From an uncultured Pseudomonadota bacterium (GTDB lineage: Bacteria; Myxococcota; UBA796), in the NCBI GenBank assembly GCA_913040875.1, contig CAJWHX010000156.1, forward strand, positions 1 to 7,575: DNA of 7,575 nucleotides, in the 5' to 3' direction. Made by a program: the position numbers and the translations under genes. Below, in pieces: positions 1 through 7,575 of the stretch (position 1 is its first letter; each line of letters opens with the position of its first letter). Below the pieces are notes generated by a model. It saw only the letters and a program-made list of their open reading frames with translations, searched no databases and was not told the origin of the DNA.

Positions 1-264
1 TAATAAATCGTAGTAGGAGATTAGGGTTTCACCGTCTCGCAATGGCACAGGAAGAAGCTCTACCGATAGGGCATTAAGGTGAATTTGACCGGTGTTACCC
101 ATCCAAGCCAGCAGCGCTTCAATCAGATCGTATTTCCAGATGGTGTTGTCTGCATCAAATACCGCAAAGGGGTGCGGGTTGTCTTTGGTTCCTTCAATGG
201 CCTGGTGAATCTGCTGACGATGTGCTTCAGACCAGAGGGTCAATTCCGGCAGAGGGGTATTCAT
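1..264 (-). CDS. HAD-superfamily phosphatase, N-terminal part (runs off left edge)
   Basis: The first 88 codons of a gene that continues beyond base 1. Seen: residues 33-41 read FAVFDADNT, the HAD motif I (hydrophobic strand, then DxDxT), so D37 would be the nucleophile and D39 the general acid. The stretch after it (IWKYDLIEALLAW) is like the phosphoserine-phosphatase-type branch of HAD enzymes. Later HAD motifs lie outside the window. The ATG overlaps the stop of the upstream alcohol dehydrogenase gene in ATGA, and an AGGA about 9 nt upstream can serve as ribosome binding site, so the two are probably translationally coupled. Role: hydrolysis of a small cytoplasmic phosphomonoester. Inference: it may dephosphorylate the substrate imported by the divergently encoded OPA transporter. 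Family call fairly sure; substrate unknown. Confidence 0.82.
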   Translation of the reverse strand, partial: MNTPLPELTLWSEAHRQQIHQAIEGTKDNPHPFAVFDADNTIWKYDLIEALLAWMGNTGQIHLNALSVELLPVPLRDGETLISYYDLL

Positions 265-1406
265 CCTAGCTGTCCTGACCAAGCGTTTCGGAAAAGGGTT
301 CGGTAGTCTTCTTCTGACAGGAGGGTGGGATTGGTTCCAGCAGTGGGGTCTTTGATAGAGTCTGGCGCCAATATCGCAATGTGACCTTCTGTAAACCCAA
401 CGTCTGCAAGCGTATGGGGAATGCTCAACGTCTTTCGTAGGACCAGTACCCATTCGAGCACAGTACAGTCTAGGTCAAGGTAGCGAGCGAGATTATCCAT
501 CCGGCCTGCAATGGCCTCTTCATTGAACTTCAGGACATAGGGCATCACGATGGCATTTGCCAAACCATGGTGAATGTGGAGGTGTGCACCCAATGGATGA
601 CTCATCGCGTGCATGGCGCCCAATCCCTTTTGAAAAGACGTGGCTCCCATCAAAGATGCCGCCAGCATATCTGCTCTGGCGTCTACATCGCTTCCATCTG
701 CCACAGCTTTGAGCAAGGATCGATGAATGAGTTTTATGGCTTCCATGGCAATGCCGTCGGCTTGAGGATGATAGCCCGGAGCACACAACGCCTCTAGATT
801 GTGAGACAGTGCGTCCATACCAACTGCGGCAGTGATCTTAGTTGGAAGTCCAATGGTGAGTGTCGGATCAGCGATAACCTTTGGAGGAAGCACTTTGGGA
901 TGAAAAATGATGGCTTTGCGACGCTCTTCTTCGTGTACAATCACAGAACAACGACCCACTTCGGACCCGGTGCCAGAAGTTGTTGGGACGGCAACGCATG
1001 GTACCATGGCAGATTCATCCACTCGAGTCCAGTAGTCTCCAATATCTTCAAAGTCCCAGAGAGGACGTGTTTGATGGGCCATTAGTGCGATGGCTTTACC
1101 CACGTCGAGAGCAGCACCGCCCCCAAATGCGATCACACCATCGTGGTTGTTGGCTCGAAGCTGTGCCACACCTTTATCCACATCTCCACCCACAGGGTTT
1201 GGCTTCATCTCAGAGAATACTCCGTGTTCCAGATTGGCTTCCGTCAAGATTTGCAACACAGACTGTGTCACATCCAGTTTGGCAAGTTGTGGATCTGTCA
1301 CAAACAAAGGGTTTTGCATACCCAGTGCTCTACAGGCTTCTGGAAGTTCAGCGATTGCTCCGACGCCGAACCGAATGGGGGTTGGGAAATTCCAAGTCGT
1401 CACCAT
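261..1406 (-). CDS. Iron-containing (group III) alcohol dehydrogenase
   Basis: 381 residues, the normal length for the family. Seen: a nucleotide-binding GGGAALDVGK at 95-104, the family TTSGTGSE segment at 142-149, and the metal site. By alignment of motifs with FucO (D196, H200, H263, H277) the ligands are D198, H202, H266 and H280, with the further conserved histidine at H270; all are present, so the enzyme should be active. Family role: NAD(P)-dependent interconversion of a primary or secondary alcohol and an aldehyde or ketone in the cytoplasm. The start has GGAG 5 nt upstream of the ATG. It lies 38 bp after the aldehyde dehydrogenase gene and overlaps the HAD phosphatase gene by 4 bp. 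In this operon it most likely makes the aldehyde that the neighbouring dehydrogenase oxidises; 4-hydroxybutyrate-type activity is an alternative. Substrate not readable from sequence. Confidence 0.93.
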   Translation of the reverse strand: MVTTWNFPTPIRFGVGAIAELPEACRALGMQNPLFVTDPQLAKLDVTQSVLQILTEANLEHGVFSEMKPNPVGGDVDKGVAQLRANNHDGVIAFGGGAALDVGKAIALMAHQTRPLWDFEDIGDYWTRVDESAMVPCVAVPTTSGTGSEVGRCSVIVHEEERRKAIIFHPKVLPPKVIADPTLTIGLPTKITAAVGMDALSHNLEALCAPGYHPQADGIAMEAIKLIHRSLLKAVADGSDVDARADMLAASLMGATSFQKGLGAMHAMSHPLGAHLHIHHGLANAIVMPYVLKFNEEAIAGRMDNLARYLDLDCTVLEWVLVLRKTLSIPHTLADVGFTEGHIAILAPDSIKDPTAGTNPTLLSEEDYRTLFRNAWSGQLG

Positions 1407-1444
1407 GATATCTCCAAGGTCAAAATAAACGGTGTTGAATGCTC

Positions 1445-2830
1445 TTACACTTTGCGAAAGTGAAAAGATTTTGGTCGGGTGAGGTGCTCGTAGCCCATTT
1501 TAGAGAGCGTACATCCTCGGCCGGAGTTCTTTACACCGACCCAAGCCAGCTGTGGATCGAGATAGTCACATCGGTTCATAAAGACTGTCCCAGTGTCTAG
1601 TTGATCCGCAATATCGAGTGCTGATTCCTCATCTTTGGTCCAAATAGACGCCGTCAGACCAAAATCTGAGTCATTCATCATTTGGATGGCTTCTTCATCG
1701 GATGAGACAGACATGATGCCGACGACAGGACCAAAGGTCTCATCGCACATGATGGACATACTGTGATTGACGTTGATGAGAACCTGAGGTGCCATGTACG
1801 GAGTGCCGTCTTTGGCATTTGGAAATAGGTTGGCATCAATGAGCGGTGTGGCTCCGGCATCAATGGCCTCTTGAATATGTGCCCGAACGTGATCGGCATT
1901 TTTGGTTCGAACCATTGGACCGAGTGTCGTATTGTCGTCCATGGGGTCACCGAGGACATAGCCTTTGACATGTTCGACAAATGTCTCCACAAACTGATCG
2001 TACAACGAATCATGTACGTATACTCGCTCAATCCCACAACAGGACTGACCAGAGTTGAAGAAGGCTCCATCGACAATGTTTTCTGCGGCATGTGCACAAT
2101 CGGCATCGGATCTAACGTAGGCAGGGTCTTTTCCACCGAGCTCCAATCCAAGACCGATAAATCGATTGGAGACTGCTCGTTGTACAGCGTGTCCACCGTC
2201 TACAGAACCTGTGAAACCGACAAAGTTTACTCTGGAATCCTGAACTAGATCTGCGACTTGCTCGTGTGTACAATGCAATATTTGAAACGCATCGCCAAGT
2301 TCCTCTACCGTATTTGCTGCCTCCAAGAGTCGTTCTGCAACCAGTGCTGTTTGTTCCGAGTGCTTTAAAACAACGGTATTTCCAGCAGCTAGGGCAGGAA
2401 TAATGGCATTGACAGCCGTTAGGTATGGGTAGTTCCACGGAGAGAGAACAACAACAACACCAAGAGGTTCACGACGAATGAAGCGTGTGAAGCCGTCCTG
2501 AACGGGCGGGAAGTAATCCGCCAATTGTTCAATCGCCATATCGAGCATGACTGTAGCGCGTTGTTCAAAGCCCGTAATCTCTCCGGCAGAGTATCGAATG
2601 GGACGTCCCATCTGCTGAGTTAATTCTGTTGCGAGTACGTCTTTGTTGGCGACGACAGCCGATACAAATTGTCGAAGGATGGTGACACGTTCTTCAATAG
2701 AACGTTGTTTCCAAGACGAACGGGCGGCGGAAGCTTTGTCTAGCATAGAATTGATTTCTTCACCAGTGGCGTATTCACGACGAAATAGAACAGTACCATC
2801 GATGGGAGAGATCGTTTCAAATGAGTGCAT
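1445..2830 (-). CDS. NAD(P)-dependent aldehyde dehydrogenase (short, succinate-semialdehyde-dehydrogenase-like)
   Basis: 461 residues, close to the short SSADH/Sad (YneI) subgroup and shorter than the usual ~480-500. Seen: PWN with N133 (oxyanion residue), K156 in the cofactor strand (LKHSE rather than the common KPSE), FTGS at 206-209, the general base E230 in LELGGKD, the catalytic cysteine C264 in GQSC (a second cysteine, C265, follows), and ETFGP at 364-368. All catalytic residues are present. It oxidises an aldehyde to the carboxylic acid in the cytoplasm. The start is well supported: AGGAG lies 6 nt before the ATG. The gene sits 41 bp after the glutamine-synthetase-like gene, as PuuC-type dehydrogenases often accompany gamma-glutamyl-amine synthetases. 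Inference: its substrate may be a gamma-glutamylated amino aldehyde; free succinate semialdehyde is the main alternative. Confidence 0.94.
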   Translation of the reverse strand: MHSFETISPIDGTVLFRREYATGEEINSMLDKASAARSSWKQRSIEERVTILRQFVSAVVANKDVLATELTQQMGRPIRYSAGEITGFEQRATVMLDMAIEQLADYFPPVQDGFTRFIRREPLGVVVVLSPWNYPYLTAVNAIIPALAAGNTVVLKHSEQTALVAERLLEAANTVEELGDAFQILHCTHEQVADLVQDSRVNFVGFTGSVDGGHAVQRAVSNRFIGLGLELGGKDPAYVRSDADCAHAAENIVDGAFFNSGQSCCGIERVYVHDSLYDQFVETFVEHVKGYVLGDPMDDNTTLGPMVRTKNADHVRAHIQEAIDAGATPLIDANLFPNAKDGTPYMAPQVLINVNHSMSIMCDETFGPVVGIMSVSSDEEAIQMMNDSDFGLTASIWTKDEESALDIADQLDTGTVFMNRCDYLDPQLAWVGVKNSGRGCTLSKMGYEHLTRPKSFHFRKV

Positions 2831-2871
2831 AATTGACTCCTGATGTAATCCAATGAATGATGTGTCTAGGC

Positions 2872-4236
2872 TTAAATGATTTCAAAATACCGACGCAATT
2901 CCCAGTCGGTAATCGCTTTACGGAACTCACGTTCTTCCCATTCACGAGTTGCAGCGAAGTGCTCTACAAACTCATCACCGAGCATTTCTCTGGCTGCAGA
3001 CGACGTCTTCAATGCTTGAGCTGCATCCCACAACGTCATAGGCAACTTTAATTCGTCTGGAATGTCTTGAGTGTAGGCATTTCCGACGATGGGATCTGAA
3101 AGTTCCAATTCATGTTCAATCCCATACAAACCAGATGCCAACACGGCACTGAGTGCGATGTAGGGATTCACATCGGCTGCACATAAGCGGTACTCCAATC
3201 GTTGAGACTGTGGTGAGCCTGGAATGACACGAAGAGCACAGGTTCGGTTTTCAACCCCCCAAGTGGCATCGGTGGGTGCCCAAGCTCCAGGAACCAATCG
3301 AGAGAAGGAATTGATGGTTGGAGCCACCATACACAGGACCTCTGGCAGCATTTTTTGACATCCTGCGACGAAGTGGCGCATCGTTTTGCTCATGTTGTGT
3401 TTAGCATCTGGATCATAAAAGGCAGACTTCCCTTCTTTATCTGTTAGTGAGATGTGGAGGTGACCCGACTGACCTGGCCAATCATTGGACCACTTCGCCA
3501 TAAAGCAAGCCATCTTGTTGTGTTTTTGAGCTCGGATTTTTGTGAAGGTTTTAAATAGGGCGGCTTTGTCACCAGCAGAGAGGGCATCGTCTACAATGAT
3601 CGCGCCTTCAAATACCCCAGGTCCCGTTTCTTCATGGAGCCCCTCTAGTGGAAAGTCCATTGCTTCAGCAGTATTCAGGATGTCTTCATAGAGACTTTGT
3701 TCGCCATTTAACCGAATCATGGAGTAGCCAAACGTTCCAGGGGCAACCGGTTTGAGGTTCTGATAGCCCTTTTCACGCACAGAGTGTGGGGTTTCATCGA
3801 AGACGAAGAACTCAAATTCCAATGCTGCATTGGCATTGAAACCCATCGAACTTGCTTTGGCGATCATTCGCTCCAAAGAAGCCCGAGCACCGACTTTGCC
3901 ATGTTCACCGACAAAAGACCCAATAAAGAGCAAGCAGTCTTCGTCTGGTAACTCACGACAAGTTGAGGGGTCAATCTCGACCAAGCCATCTGGATATCCA
4001 GTATGCCACCCCGTTACTTTGACATTGTCATAGAGTTGATCGTCACAGTCCCAGCCCAAGACGACGTCACAGAAGCCAAAGCCTTTGTCGAGGGCAGAAA
4101 AGAACTTGTTCTTAGCCATGTACTTGCCTCGAAGAATACCGTCGATGTCAAAGAGACCCACTTTGACATGTTTGAGTCCCCGTTCCTCTACTATAAGTTT
4201 GGCGTCTTCTATCGTTTTTACGTCGCGTGCCTTCAT
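2872..4236 (-). CDS. Glutamine synthetase family protein, probable gamma-glutamyl-amine (polyamine/amino-alcohol) synthetase
   Basis: 454 residues from the preferred start. Seen, numbered from that start: N-terminal FDIDGILRGK (29-38), metal-site ExE at E140/E142, the HEETGPGVFE segment at 201-210 giving E202 and E210, SGHLHISL at 257-264 with the ATP/metal-site histidines, NRTCALR at 330-336, and RLEYR at 346-350 leading into NPY. These are the ATP-grasping and glutamate-binding landmarks of the GS fold. The overall pattern is nearer PuuA and IpuC than true GlnA, and I see no GlnA-type adenylylation loop. Expected reaction: ATP-dependent joining of glutamate to an amine. First gene of the operon. 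Start choice: GGGAG stands 6 nt before this ATG, whereas an in-frame TTG 34 codons upstream (4338) has no ribosome binding site. Amine substrate is not determined. Confidence 0.9.
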   Translation of the reverse strand: MKARDVKTIEDAKLIVEERGLKHVKVGLFDIDGILRGKYMAKNKFFSALDKGFGFCDVVLGWDCDDQLYDNVKVTGWHTGYPDGLVEIDPSTCRELPDEDCLLFIGSFVGEHGKVGARASLERMIAKASSMGFNANAALEFEFFVFDETPHSVREKGYQNLKPVAPGTFGYSMIRLNGEQSLYEDILNTAEAMDFPLEGLHEETGPGVFEGAIIVDDALSAGDKAALFKTFTKIRAQKHNKMACFMAKWSNDWPGQSGHLHISLTDKEGKSAFYDPDAKHNMSKTMRHFVAGCQKMLPEVLCMVAPTINSFSRLVPGAWAPTDATWGVENRTCALRVIPGSPQSQRLEYRLCAADVNPYIALSAVLASGLYGIEHELELSDPIVGNAYTQDIPDELKLPMTLWDAAQALKTSSAAREMLGDEFVEHFAATREWEEREFRKAITDWELRRYFEII

Positions 4237-4242
4237 CTCGTG

Positions 4243-4247
4243 CTCCC
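4243..4247 (-). promoter_or_regulatory. Shine-Dalgarno site deciding the GS-family start
   Basis: Minus-strand GGGAG, 6 nt before the ATG at 4236. This is the reason for choosing that start over the in-frame TTG at 4338, which would add 34 residues and has no purine-rich site before it. Confidence 0.75.
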
Positions 4248-4324
4248 ATATTTGATTGCGGTCATTGGTATGTAAGTGTATATCATCCAAGTGGAGAATT
4301 CCGCCGAGAAATTGATCATTCGAC

Positions 4325-4344
4325 TCTATTTCATTCAAAATAGA
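4325..4344. promoter_or_regulatory. Perfect 7-bp inverted repeat, possible operator
   Basis: TCTATTT, a 6-nt spacer (cattca), then AAATAGA: a perfect AT-rich inverted repeat in the middle of the divergent region. It overlaps the candidate plus-strand -10 box at 4336-4341, a typical place for a repressor site. AT-rich 7-bp repeats can arise by chance, so this is tentative. Confidence 0.3.
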
Positions 4345-4398
4345 CGTCCGAGTCCATATCGATTAGAAGTGGTCATGAGATCATAGAATGGAGACGCC

Positions 4399-5772
4399 AT
4401 GTCCAATCCCGCTGCGCAATCAATGCAGGCTCCGATGAGTCCTGAATTGAAACAATGGCGTTTAAAAGTCTTTACCAGTACGTGGCTCACCTATTTTGGG
4501 CTCTATTTTTGCCGCAAAGCCTTCTATGCCGTGAAGGGAACCCTCGCAGAAGACTTGATGATTGATGAGACACAGCTCGGGTACATTGGATTCACGTATT
4601 TGCTCTGCTACACCATTGGACAATTTACCGCAGCCGGAACAGGTCGTATTTTTGGTGCTCGAAATCTGCTCTTGATCGGTATGGCAACCTCACTCATTAC
4701 CAACATCATCTTTGGTTTTGCCGCCAATGTGTGGACCATTACTGTGTTCATGGGGGTCAATGGACTTGCTCAAGCTACAGGGTGGCCGTCAACAGTCGGG
4801 GTCATGGCCAATTGGACTACCCGTTCTGAACGGGGAACTCTGATGGGGGTTTGGGCGACCTGCTATCAGTTTGGGGGAGTGGCTGCCACAGCCTGGGCGG
4901 CTTGGTGGCTTAGTATGCAGGGGTGGAGAGGAGCCTTCTTTGCGGCTTCGAGTATACTGATGCTGATCTGGTTCTATGTCTATTTCTTTGTTCGCAATAA
5001 GCCAGAGGACGTTGGTTTGACATTGGATGATCCGGATGAACAAGCGGCACCTGATCCAGATAATGTTGACTCAACAGACAATGAGATTGCAGATGATGGT
5101 AAAATGTTTTCTTCGGGCGTACTGCAAACGGTCCTCTTAGTGGGGTCATTTTACTTCTTTGTCAAATTTGTCCGTTATGCACTTTGGTCTTGGGCACCAT
5201 TTCTGTTGGACACCCAGTTTGGATTGGATGCCGATACTGCAGGCTATATGAGTACACTCTTTGACCTGTTTGGGTTTGCCGGAGCTCTGACTGCAGGTGT
5301 GGTGTCTGACAGGTATTTTAACGGTCGGCGAACCACCATTTCGATTTTGATGCTGATGGGAATGGTCGTTGGTTGCAGTGTTCTGTATTGGGCGGGTACG
5401 ATGGCGAGCAATCCTGCCTTTGGTTCAGATTTGGTTCTCTTGACCTGTGGGGTGGGTTTGTCGATGATTGGCTTTATGCTCTTTGGTCCCGACTCCTTAC
5501 TAACAGGTGCTGGTGCGATGGATTTGGGTTCGAAGAAGTCAGCCTTGGCAGCAGCAGGCATTATCAATGGAATGGGGTCTGTTGGTTCCATGGCGCAGGA
5601 AATCATTTTGCCAAAGGTGATGGAGTATTCAAAAGATGGTGTGGAGTTTGCTGGTATAGGGTTTACAGCTACAGAGGCTACGTTTGCGGTGTTGATTGTG
5701 GCATCAATGCTGTCTATATTTCCGTTGTTGATTGTACGGATGCGCAATCAGCAAGGCAAGTCTGATTTGTAG
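4399..5772 (+). CDS. MFS transporter, organophosphate:phosphate antiporter (OPA) family, GlpT/UhpT-like
   Basis: 457 residues, the usual OPA length, with about twelve hydrophobic segments in two halves joined by an acidic central loop (about 209-234). Seen: YFCRK with R39, matching GlpT R45, and FVRYALWSW with R259, matching GlpT R269 in LLRYGVLDW. In GlpT these two arginines bind the substrate phosphate, so this protein should handle phosphate esters. Other family landmarks are GLAQATGWP (122-130), the cytoplasmic TRSERG (141-146) and GWRGAFF (175-181). Inner-membrane location; expected exchange of an organic phosphate for inorganic phosphate. The start has GGAG at 4390-4393, 5 nt before the ATG. 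It is divergent from the amine-oxidation operon. UhpC-like sensor function is the alternative, but no uhpA/uhpB-like genes are visible. Family sure, substrate unknown. Confidence 0.92.
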   Translation: MSNPAAQSMQAPMSPELKQWRLKVFTSTWLTYFGLYFCRKAFYAVKGTLAEDLMIDETQLGYIGFTYLLCYTIGQFTAAGTGRIFGARNLLLIGMATSLITNIIFGFAANVWTITVFMGVNGLAQATGWPSTVGVMANWTTRSERGTLMGVWATCYQFGGVAATAWAAWWLSMQGWRGAFFAASSILMLIWFYVYFFVRNKPEDVGLTLDDPDEQAAPDPDNVDSTDNEIADDGKMFSSGVLQTVLLVGSFYFFVKFVRYALWSWAPFLLDTQFGLDADTAGYMSTLFDLFGFAGALTAGVVSDRYFNGRRTTISILMLMGMVVGCSVLYWAGTMASNPAFGSDLVLLTCGVGLSMIGFMLFGPDSLLTGAGAMDLGSKKSALAAAGIINGMGSVGSMAQEIILPKVMEYSKDGVEFAGIGFTATEATFAVLIVASMLSIFPLLIVRMRNQQGKSDL

Positions 5773-5785
5773 ACGGGATGTGACT

Positions 5786-5803
5786 GTTGAACTGATGTTC
5801 AAC
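5786..5803. repeat. Perfect 7-bp inverted repeat after the transporter gene
   Basis: GTTGAAC, TGAT loop, GTTCAAC, starting 13 bp after the transporter stop codon. It could form a small hairpin, but no run of T follows, so it is not a convincing intrinsic terminator. It lies 40 bp before the next start codon and could instead be an operator or a weak attenuating structure. Confidence 0.4.
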
Positions 5804-5833
5804 TTGAATTACGGTTTTGTATACCCATTTATC

Positions 5834-5840
5834 AGGTGAG
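5834..5840 (+). promoter_or_regulatory. Shine-Dalgarno site of the TPR-repeat gene
   Basis: AGGTGAG, with its AGGTG core 5 nt before the ATG at 5844. It supports this start, and with it the absence of an NTPase domain upstream in this gene. Confidence 0.7.
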
Positions 5841-5843
5841 TTC

Positions 5844-7575
5844 ATGTCTGTTTTGCGTTCTGGTCAACTAAAAGAAATCGACAGTGTATTTTGTCAGGCG
5901 ACATTGGATTGGCATCATGAAGCAGAGTCGACCGGATTTGACTGGTATCTGTTAAAGCATGGCGTGTTTCATTTGTTGTCGCAAGGCCAAGTGGAAAAGG
6001 CCAAACAACGGATGCTCGATATTCACTTTATGGCAGAATTTTCAGAAGCCTACGAGACTGTGGTGGAGCCGTTGAAAGCCTTTCGTGTTGTTGGTGTTGA
6101 AGACATGGGACGAGGATTTTGTGATGTAGGAGAATCTTTGAACCGTGTGGATGAGCCTACCATATTGGATGCGACTGCCTGTGGCAGGGTAGCAGGACTG
6201 CTTCGAGATGCTGGATTGTATGATGCGGGTGTTATCCTAGAAAAGATACGATATTCTGTTTTTGAACGTGTTTTGCGAAAAGAGCATCCCGGGATACTGA
6301 CCTCTATAAACAATCTTGCCGGACTATATCAGTCTCAAGGTAGATATGAAAAAACCGAACCTTTACTTATACGATGTTTAGAGACTAGAGAACGGACTTT
6401 GGGCAAAGAACATCCCCGTACACTGACCTCTATAAACAGTCTTGCAGTTCTATACGAAAAACAAGGTAGATATGAAGAAGCGGAACCTTTATGCATTAGA
6501 GCGCTAGAGGCTAGAGAACGTGTTTTGGGCAAAGAGCATCCATCTACACTGACCTCTGTAGGAAGTCTTGCAGTTCTATACCATGATCAAGGTAGATACG
6601 AAGAAGCGGAACCCTTACATATTAGAGCGCTAGAAGGCAGAGAACGAACTTTGGGGAAAGAGCATCCAGATACATTGACCTCTGTAGGTAGTCTTGCAGT
6701 TCTATACCATGATCAAGGTAGATATGAAGAAGCGGAACCTTTATGCATTAGAGCGCTAGAAGCTAGAGAACGAACTCTTGGCAAAGAGCATCCGTCTACA
6801 CTCAACTCTGTAGTAAGTCTTGCCTTACTATATCAGTATCAAGGTAGATATGAAGAAGCGGAACCTTTATGCATTAGAGCGCTAGAATCGAGTGAAAGAA
6901 CTCTTGGTAAAGAGCATCCAGACACACTGACCTCTATAAACAGTCTTGCAGTTCTATACCATGATCAAGGTAGATACGAAGAAGCGGAACCTTTATACAT
7001 TAGAGCGCTAGAATCGAGTGAAAGAACTCTTGGCAGAGAACACCCAAAAACACTGACCTCTATCAACAGTCTTGCAGTTCTATACCATGATCAAGGTAGA
7101 TATGAAGAAGCGGAATCTTTATGCATTAGAGCGCTAGAATCGAAAGAACGCATTTTGGGTAAAGAACATCCCCATACACTCACCACTATAAACAATCTTG
7201 CCGGACTATACAATAGTCAAGGTAGATACGAAGAAGCCGAACGTTTGTATATTAGAGCGCTAGAAGCCAAAGAACGAACTTTGGGGAAAGAACATCCAGA
7301 TACACTCAACTCTGTAGGAAATCTTGCTGGAGTATATAGGTTTCAAGGTAGATATGAAGAAGCGGAACCTTTATATATTAGAGTATTGGATGTCTTTGAA
7401 CGTGTTTTGGGGAAAGAACATCCCCATACACTGACCTCTGTCGGAAATCTTGCTGGAGTATATAGGTCTCAAGGTAGATATGAAGAAGCGGAACCTTTGT
7501 ATATTAGAGTGCTAGAATCGAGAGAACGAACTCTTGGCAAAGAGCATCCGTCTACACTCAACTCTGTAGTAAGTC
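5844..7575 (+). CDS. TPR-repeat (kinesin-light-chain-type) protein, N-terminal part, open at right edge
   Basis: An uninterrupted frame of 577 codons from ATG 5844 to the window end; the C-terminus is outside. No signal peptide or membrane segment is visible, so it is likely cytoplasmic. Residues ~1-105 form a helical region whose segment around 30-70 (WYLLKHGVFHLLSQGQ, then an LDIHF-like stretch) resembles the Y..HL..HL..AG...LL.DF linker seen before the repeats in NACHT/NB-ARC STAND proteins; no P-loop is present. Residues ~106-147 are a degenerate TPR (GLYDAG in place of GRYEEA). From residue 148 come ten complete 42-residue TPRs and the first ten residues of an eleventh. TPR arrays of this kind bind protein partners; the partner here cannot be read. 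It lies 71 bp after the transporter gene on the same strand, but the context gives no functional link. Confidence 0.9.
   Translation, partial: MSVLRSGQLKEIDSVFCQATLDWHHEAESTGFDWYLLKHGVFHLLSQGQVEKAKQRMLDIHFMAEFSEAYETVVEPLKAFRVVGVEDMGRGFCDVGESLNRVDEPTILDATACGRVAGLLRDAGLYDAGVILEKIRYSVFERVLRKEHPGILTSINNLAGLYQSQGRYEKTEPLLIRCLETRERTLGKEHPRTLTSINSLAVLYEKQGRYEEAEPLCIRALEARERVLGKEHPSTLTSVGSLAVLYHDQGRYEEAEPLHIRALEGRERTLGKEHPDTLTSVGSLAVLYHDQGRYEEAEPLCIRALEARERTLGKEHPSTLNSVVSLALLYQYQGRYEEAEPLCIRALESSERTLGKEHPDTLTSINSLAVLYHDQGRYEEAEPLYIRALESSERTLGREHPKTLTSINSLAVLYHDQGRYEEAESLCIRALESKERILGKEHPHTLTTINNLAGLYNSQGRYEEAERLYIRALEAKERTLGKEHPDTLNSVGNLAGVYRFQGRYEEAEPLYIRVLDVFERVLGKEHPHTLTSVGNLAGVYRSQGRYEEAEPLYIRVLESRERTLGKEHPSTLNSVVS
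6285..7575 (+). repeat. Tandem 126-bp coding repeat array, 10 full units plus a partial
   Basis: Units begin with the HP codons at 6285, 6411, 6537, 6663, 6789, 6915, 7041, 7167, 7293 and 7419, with a partial unit from 7545. The period is exactly 126 bp with no indel, shown by CAAGGTAGA recurring at 6336 and every 126 bp to 7470. Each unit encodes a 42-residue TPR with the fixed parts HP.TL at 1-5 (HPGIL in unit 1), LA at 11-12, QGRYE at 18-22, E25, ER at 36-37 and LG at 39-40. Bases 6159-6284 hold a diverged unit that may be the ancestral cap. DNA conservation extends to silent positions, for instance AGA in every GRY, so the array expanded recently or is being homogenised. Confidence 0.95.
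7521..7575 (+). repeat. 55-nt exact copy of 6765-6819, six units apart
   Basis: Bases 7521-7575 are identical to 6765-6819, a distance of 756 bp or exactly six units. The match covers the end of one unit and the start of the next, including the rare NSVVS variant otherwise seen only in unit 5. It is cut by the window end and may be longer. Confidence 0.9.

Follow-up and report, generated by a model that had tools for sequence, protein, structure and literature searches.

Signs of exchange between units and a variable putative ligand face in a bacterial array of kinesin-light-chain-type TPR repeats

Among the described systems closest to the array reported here are the high internal conservation (HIC) repeats of fungal NLR proteins, which include KLC-type TPRs. 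In the sections available of Dyrka et al. 2014 (PMC4986451), units of fungal NLR TPR and ANK repeats are described as being exchanged within genes, with concave-face positions that vary or are under selection, and the accessible text of Ament-Velasquez et al. 2025 (PMC12222747) gives the same account of exchange and of variable or selected concave-face positions for WD40 repeats. Unit exchange and concave-face variability, as far as those parts of the sources describe them, are also the features of the array studied here, which lies in a stretch of 7,575 nucleotides of bacterial DNA (the window). The visible window protein, unlike the fungal receptors, contains no NOD domain, and length variation is, in the same available text, known for the fungal repeats. 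The 42-residue TPR-like repeat proteins (TPR_10/TPR_12; Marold et al. 2015) have the unit length and KLC-type fold seen in the window, whereas the window protein is bacterial, has a different head and has units that are 75% alike in protein. The NB-ARC-TPR and TPR-CHAT proteins of cyanobacterial and planctomycete loci share both the unit and the style of homogenised array, but the window protein is without NB-ARC and its visible part is without CHAT. Furthermore, the environmental proteins P0002, P0003 and P0004 begin with the same head followed by TPRs; their TPRs, in contrast to those of the window protein, are degenerate, and no homogenised array was seen in them.

The features of the window are as follows.

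1 to 453, minus strand: ORF fragment cut by the left edge
Within 261 to 5772, minus strand: iron alcohol dehydrogenase, aldehyde dehydrogenase and glutamine-synthetase-like enzyme (profile matches)
Within 261 to 5772, plus strand: MFS transporter, after the minus-strand genes (profile matches)
5844 to 7575, plus strand: TPR gene, open at the edge, with ATG 5844 as the likely start
5844 to 6095, plus strand: conserved head, residues 1-84 (G-V-F-H-L-L ... R-M-L-D ... T-V-V-E-P-L), from an alignment
6096 to 6281, plus strand: linker from head to array, predicted to be helical with low to moderate confidence
6282 to 7541, plus strand: ten full 126-bp units of 42 residues each, kinesin-light-chain-type TPR (TRF, EHP anchors, Pfam)
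6765 to 6819, plus strand: first copy of an exactly repeated 55-mer, spanning units 4 and 5
7521 to 7575, plus strand: second copy of the 55-mer, flush with the right-hand edge, where the assembly probably broke
7542 to 7575, plus strand: first 34 bases of unit 11 (EHP register)

The visible part of the TPR gene probably encodes the N-terminal portion of a protein that serves as a scaffold or in recognition, composed of a small helical head and at least ten KLC-type TPRs that would be homogenised by exchange and would vary on the putative ligand face. The likelihoods that we attach to this reading and to the rival readings weighed below overlap, since these readings are not all mutually exclusive.

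The period of 126 bp is strict over positions 6282-7575: ten complete units are followed by the first 34 bp of the next, with 0 indels. TRF placed the array at 6296-7549 with a period of 126, 10.0 copies and 0% indels, and an EHP anchor recurs every 42 residues along it, in agreement with the exact, indel-free periodicity described in an earlier note on this DNA. As that note had also stated, the reading frame runs open into the window edge, the ORF reaching position 7575. Its span of 6285 to 7575 is indeed a periodic tract, but the start at 6285 reflects a choice of register, and anchoring on EHP sets the start of the first unit at 6282.

The Pfam family TPR_10 (PF13374) matches the array with an E value of 1.3e-146 in 10 stretches at an exact spacing of 42 residues, and TPR_12 was also called. 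Among proteins of solved structure, kinesin light chains 1 and 2 give the best sequence matches. The sequence also matches two PDB chains whose entries are titled kinesin-light-chain TPR-like repeats, 4y6w and 4y6c, which we take to be those of Marold et al. 2015. From residue 161 onward, no 10-residue block of the structural model has a pLDDT below 81, and the best matches of the predicted fold are APPBP2, with a query-normalised TM of 0.69-0.70 and an rmsd of 9-11, and KLC1. The E values of this predicted fold against APPBP2 and KLC chains run from 1e-13 to about 1e-9, and some of the matched KLC1 entries have cargo peptides bound. By profile and by spacing, the array is a kinesin-light-chain-type TPR solenoid, and the prediction assigns it a KLC-like fold.

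The units had been called nearly identical and attributed to a recent expansion or continuing recombination. Over the 45 pairs of units, DNA identity ranges from 0.69 to 0.90 with a mean of 0.785, and protein identity from 0.62 to 0.93 with a mean of 0.75, while dS ranges from 0.23 to 1.18 with a mean of 0.56, and mean dN is 0.19. At sites with the same residue, the codon agrees between units at a rate of 0.74-0.75, compared with 0.36 expected from the usage of 4 other genes of the window and 0.48 from the codon usage of the array itself. Since this agreement lies above both expectations, the units share common DNA descent. The shared silent sites reported earlier were thus recovered, but with a mean identity of 78.5% in DNA and 75% in protein, and with dS not falling below 0.23, the terms "nearly identical" and "recent" overstate the likeness.

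Several lines of evidence point to DNA exchange between units, as had been proposed from the sequence. Adjacent units are more alike than units overall (DNA identity of 0.820 versus 0.785; p = 0.001, 5000 shuffles). In a codon-block compatibility test, which compares nearby variable codons within the unit with shuffled ones, 0 of 2000 permutations were as low as the observed value at each of four window sizes, and 0 of 500 when the test was repeated. The units are mosaic, and exact blocks of 47-55 bp recur between units at distances of one, two, three and six along the array. Unit 1 is the most divergent, with a mean identity of 0.73 to the other units, as expected of an array end when the array is homogenised by exchange, an explanation that does not extend to the internal unit 9, which is almost as divergent (0.735). 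A mixture of strains within the assembly could add to the mosaic signal. Exchange between units, or concerted evolution, is a criterion by which HIC repeats are recognised, and in the window it is indicated indirectly, from a single sequence. Another criterion is an identity above 85% over at least 100 residues; the units average 0.75, with 4 of the 45 pairs at 0.86 or above, as calculated by a procedure other than that of the authors. Of the 22 other arrays with a DNA identity of at least 0.75, 18 had enough units and informative codons for the exchange test, which fell below 0.05 in 9 of them.

These data bear on a rival history, namely, an ordinary TPR scaffold under purifying selection that arose by moderately old duplications, with neither ongoing exchange nor selection for change on the concave face. 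The mean dS of 0.56 (up to 1.18) and the mean dN of 0.19 imply that most unit pairs are not recent, which is in line with such a history, as is the window's pN/pS ratio at the ligand positions, which scarcely exceeds 1 (see below). We nevertheless regard it as unlikely, given that codon agreement surpasses both expectations, that adjacent units resemble each other more closely and the unit shows a mosaic of sites along its length, and that identical 47-55 bp stretches are found between units 1, 2, 3 or 6 apart.

The reading preferred here, a repeat body homogenised by exchange, includes variation on the putative ligand face. The unit was aligned to the 34-residue TPR via the G-x-Y-x-x-A core, the TPR position being the unit position minus 5 in this alignment of our own. 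The portion available of PMC1261162 lists TPR positions 2, 5, 9, 12, 13, 33 and 34 as the most variable, concave-face positions; the five ligand positions tested were TPR 2, 5, 9, 12 and 13. In the window, mean entropy is 1.52 bits at these five and 0.45 elsewhere (p = 0.003), a test that was not blind, in that the variable positions had been seen before mapping, whereas the other arrays are independent of that. Unit positions 4, 29, 35 and 36, outside the five, vary as much in the window. Diversifying selection at concave-face positions is a further criterion for HIC repeats. In the window, dividing pN at the five positions by the pS of the unit gives 1.25, with a crude bootstrap range of 0.99-1.42, and change on the concave face may be favoured in the window gene.

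The same pattern is found in other arrays. The five positions are enriched for variation (<0.05) in 20 of the 22 other arrays with a DNA identity of at least 0.75, which provides a testable parallel between homogeneous bacterial arrays and fungal self/non-self receptors. The most variable unit positions in these 22 arrays are 14, 17, 36, 7, 4 and 18, and unit position 10 (TPR 5) is not raised (0.43 bits). In 21 of the 22, pN at the five positions is greater than whole-unit pS. Since the same holds for 17 of the 27 arrays below that identity, the excess is not confined to homogenised arrays: it seems to be general for TPR ligand faces, homogenised arrays adding a uniform framework around the ligand face.

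These arrays stem from a survey of 100 loci plus the window, in which arrays of at least 5 units at 42-residue spacing were considered. After removal of duplicates, units with masked codons and the antisense frame L047 (+), the set contained 50 arrays: the window, the 22 others at or above 0.75 DNA identity, and the 27 below. The survey anchors needed the letters HP, so arrays without HP were missed. The window ranks 19th of the 50 for DNA identity between units, a rank that is not a census because the choice of loci, mostly one per genome, followed their similarity to the window protein. The view that such homogeneity is unusual for TPRs of the kinesin-light-chain class is not supported by this comparison, as 18 of the 49 other non-redundant arrays in this similarity-picked set are more homogeneous. 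Proteins matching the window protein at an E value of 0.001 or better occur in 61 of 117 genomes drawn from the phylum of an Oscillatoria genome and in 97 of 119 drawn from that of a planctomycete genome, the starting genome being included in each case. The array thus seems to be a typical representative of a known and common bacterial repeat class, and what was striking in it turns out to be typical of a widespread one. Among the titles and abstract openings of the literature matches listed, which include few subscription papers, none concerned homogenised bacterial 42-residue TPR arrays, and we do not claim that such arrays are unpublished. At one surveyed locus, L002 of Oscillatoria sp. PCC 10802, three frames contain TPR arrays of 80-94% DNA identity between units, more homogeneous than that of the window, with parts masked.

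Upstream of the array, the gene probably starts at ATG 5844, which by inspection is preceded by AGGTGAG, the mechanical ORF beginning at TTG 5817; P0003 and P0004 begin at the residue that matches ATG 5844. In the alignment of the window protein with P0002, P0003 and P0004, all four heads agree at 30 columns of residues 5-84, or 31 if the initiator Met is counted, and the head is predicted to be helical with low to moderate confidence. A comparison of the head with Pfam gave no match at the cut-off (best DUF1804, 14.6 bits versus 29), a comparison with solved sequences gave none either (best E value 0.22), and the other searches made returned no relatives beyond these three environmental TPR proteins. 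P0002, P0003 and P0004 have 676, 768 and 627 aa, respectively, and their TPR bodies are degenerate. The window protein thus shares its head with three proteins whose bodies are degenerate and of other lengths, which means that the head is conserved while the repeat body turns over. The earlier note had named a constant unit number and order in distant relatives as an observation that would speak against its reading; this was not seen, the same-head proteins having different lengths (the quantity compared, rather than unit-by-unit counts) and degenerate repeats.

Domains next to the arrays of relatives raise the question of whether the window protein is the sensor part of a conflict protein of the STAND/NLR or CHAT type, with the other domain beyond the window. 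Of eight homogeneous relatives scanned, four have NB-ARC before the array (L013, L043, L045 and L073) and three have CHAT after it (L052, L059 and L079), whereas L049 has neither within the stretch examined. Moreover, the NCBIfam model FxSxx_TPR, which has a cut-off of 300, gives a score of 427. However, its best stretch falls on the repeats and takes in only positions 486-734 of the 830 in the model, and the four PADLOC matches are likewise all on the repeats, the best being a generic TPR model. The visible protein (the 586-residue frame) and the head have no NB-ARC or NACHT match, and hence no NOD domain of these kinds before the repeats as STAND/NLR membership would have it, and P0002-P0004 show TPR families only, at 1e-5. 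A role as conflict-protein sensor is therefore doubtful. Assignment as the TPR protein of the FxSxx-COOH system (NF040586) was rejected, the score being above the cut-off but its best stretch being confined to the repeats. L079 has, in one frame, a homogeneous TPR array together with rhomboid and CHAT domains.

In the scaffold or recognition protein that we favour, unit exchange and duplication inside the gene would keep framework residues and codons alike, while concave-face residues (TPR 2, 5, 9, 12 and 13) and a few others would change. The gene may in this way reshuffle its partner-binding surface, and probably its length too, without leaving frame. The concave face probably binds a peptide or protein and the number of units is likely to vary; that the partner is a protein ligand and the role one in recognition or signalling is a guess. 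By analogy, it is possible, and put forward tentatively, that bacterial 42-residue TPR arrays as a group are recognition surfaces diversified by recombination, a general class with a framework homogenised in its DNA and a hypervariable ligand face, parallel to fungal NLR sensors. The window protein would stand in this class with a rarely found head and no NOD, its head family turning over between degenerate and freshly homogenised bodies. Diversity-generating retroelements diversify bacterial sensors, according to the part available of PMC10907252; such an element was rejected as an explanation here, no reverse transcriptase being present among the larger ORFs of the window, which were those scanned.

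The array continues to the last base of the window. The 55-mer at 6765-6819 is identical to that at 7521-7575 and is the sole 55-mer that occurs twice in the window; among 1166 cut points in the array, a recurring suffix of 55 is reached at the last base only. A word length of 55 is usual for short-read assemblers. An edge on the sole repeated 55-mer is probably an assembly break caused by the repeat, so that ten units are a lower bound, and we infer that the window is the whole contig. More generally, where such an array runs into the end of a contig, its number of units should be treated as a lower bound. The same coincidence, at 1 of 1166 cut points, could be taken to suggest that the array itself is an artefact, i.e. 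a wrong walk through the repeat graph that yielded an unreal order or number of units, and there is a published case, in the text available of PMC12222747, of such arrays being recoverable from long reads and not from Illumina assemblies. This explanation is quite improbable: no further 55-mer recurs in the window, so an assembler with 55-letter words was not forced astray before the edge, the ten units are free of indels and frameshifts, and similar arrays are present in many other genomes.

The genes at 261-5772 probably form a catabolic cluster and give no hint of the role of the TPR protein. The ORF fragment at the left edge has no Pfam match at 1e-5; a motif in it, noticed by eye, is presumably HAD-phosphatase-like. 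No RNA family was found in the window at the gathering score. A scan of positions 5650-5900 gave 2 promoter-like sites, where 0.5 would be expected, and 1 terminator-like site, against an expectation of 0.2, those on the plus strand lying inside the end of the MFS gene. The nearest relatives of the glutamine-synthetase-like enzyme are up to 95% identical, and among the best 120 of 8000 matches listed, those bearing an organism name are 66-72% identical and are assigned to Rickettsiales, Deltaproteobacteria, Myxococcota, Gammaproteobacteria, Enterovibrio and others.
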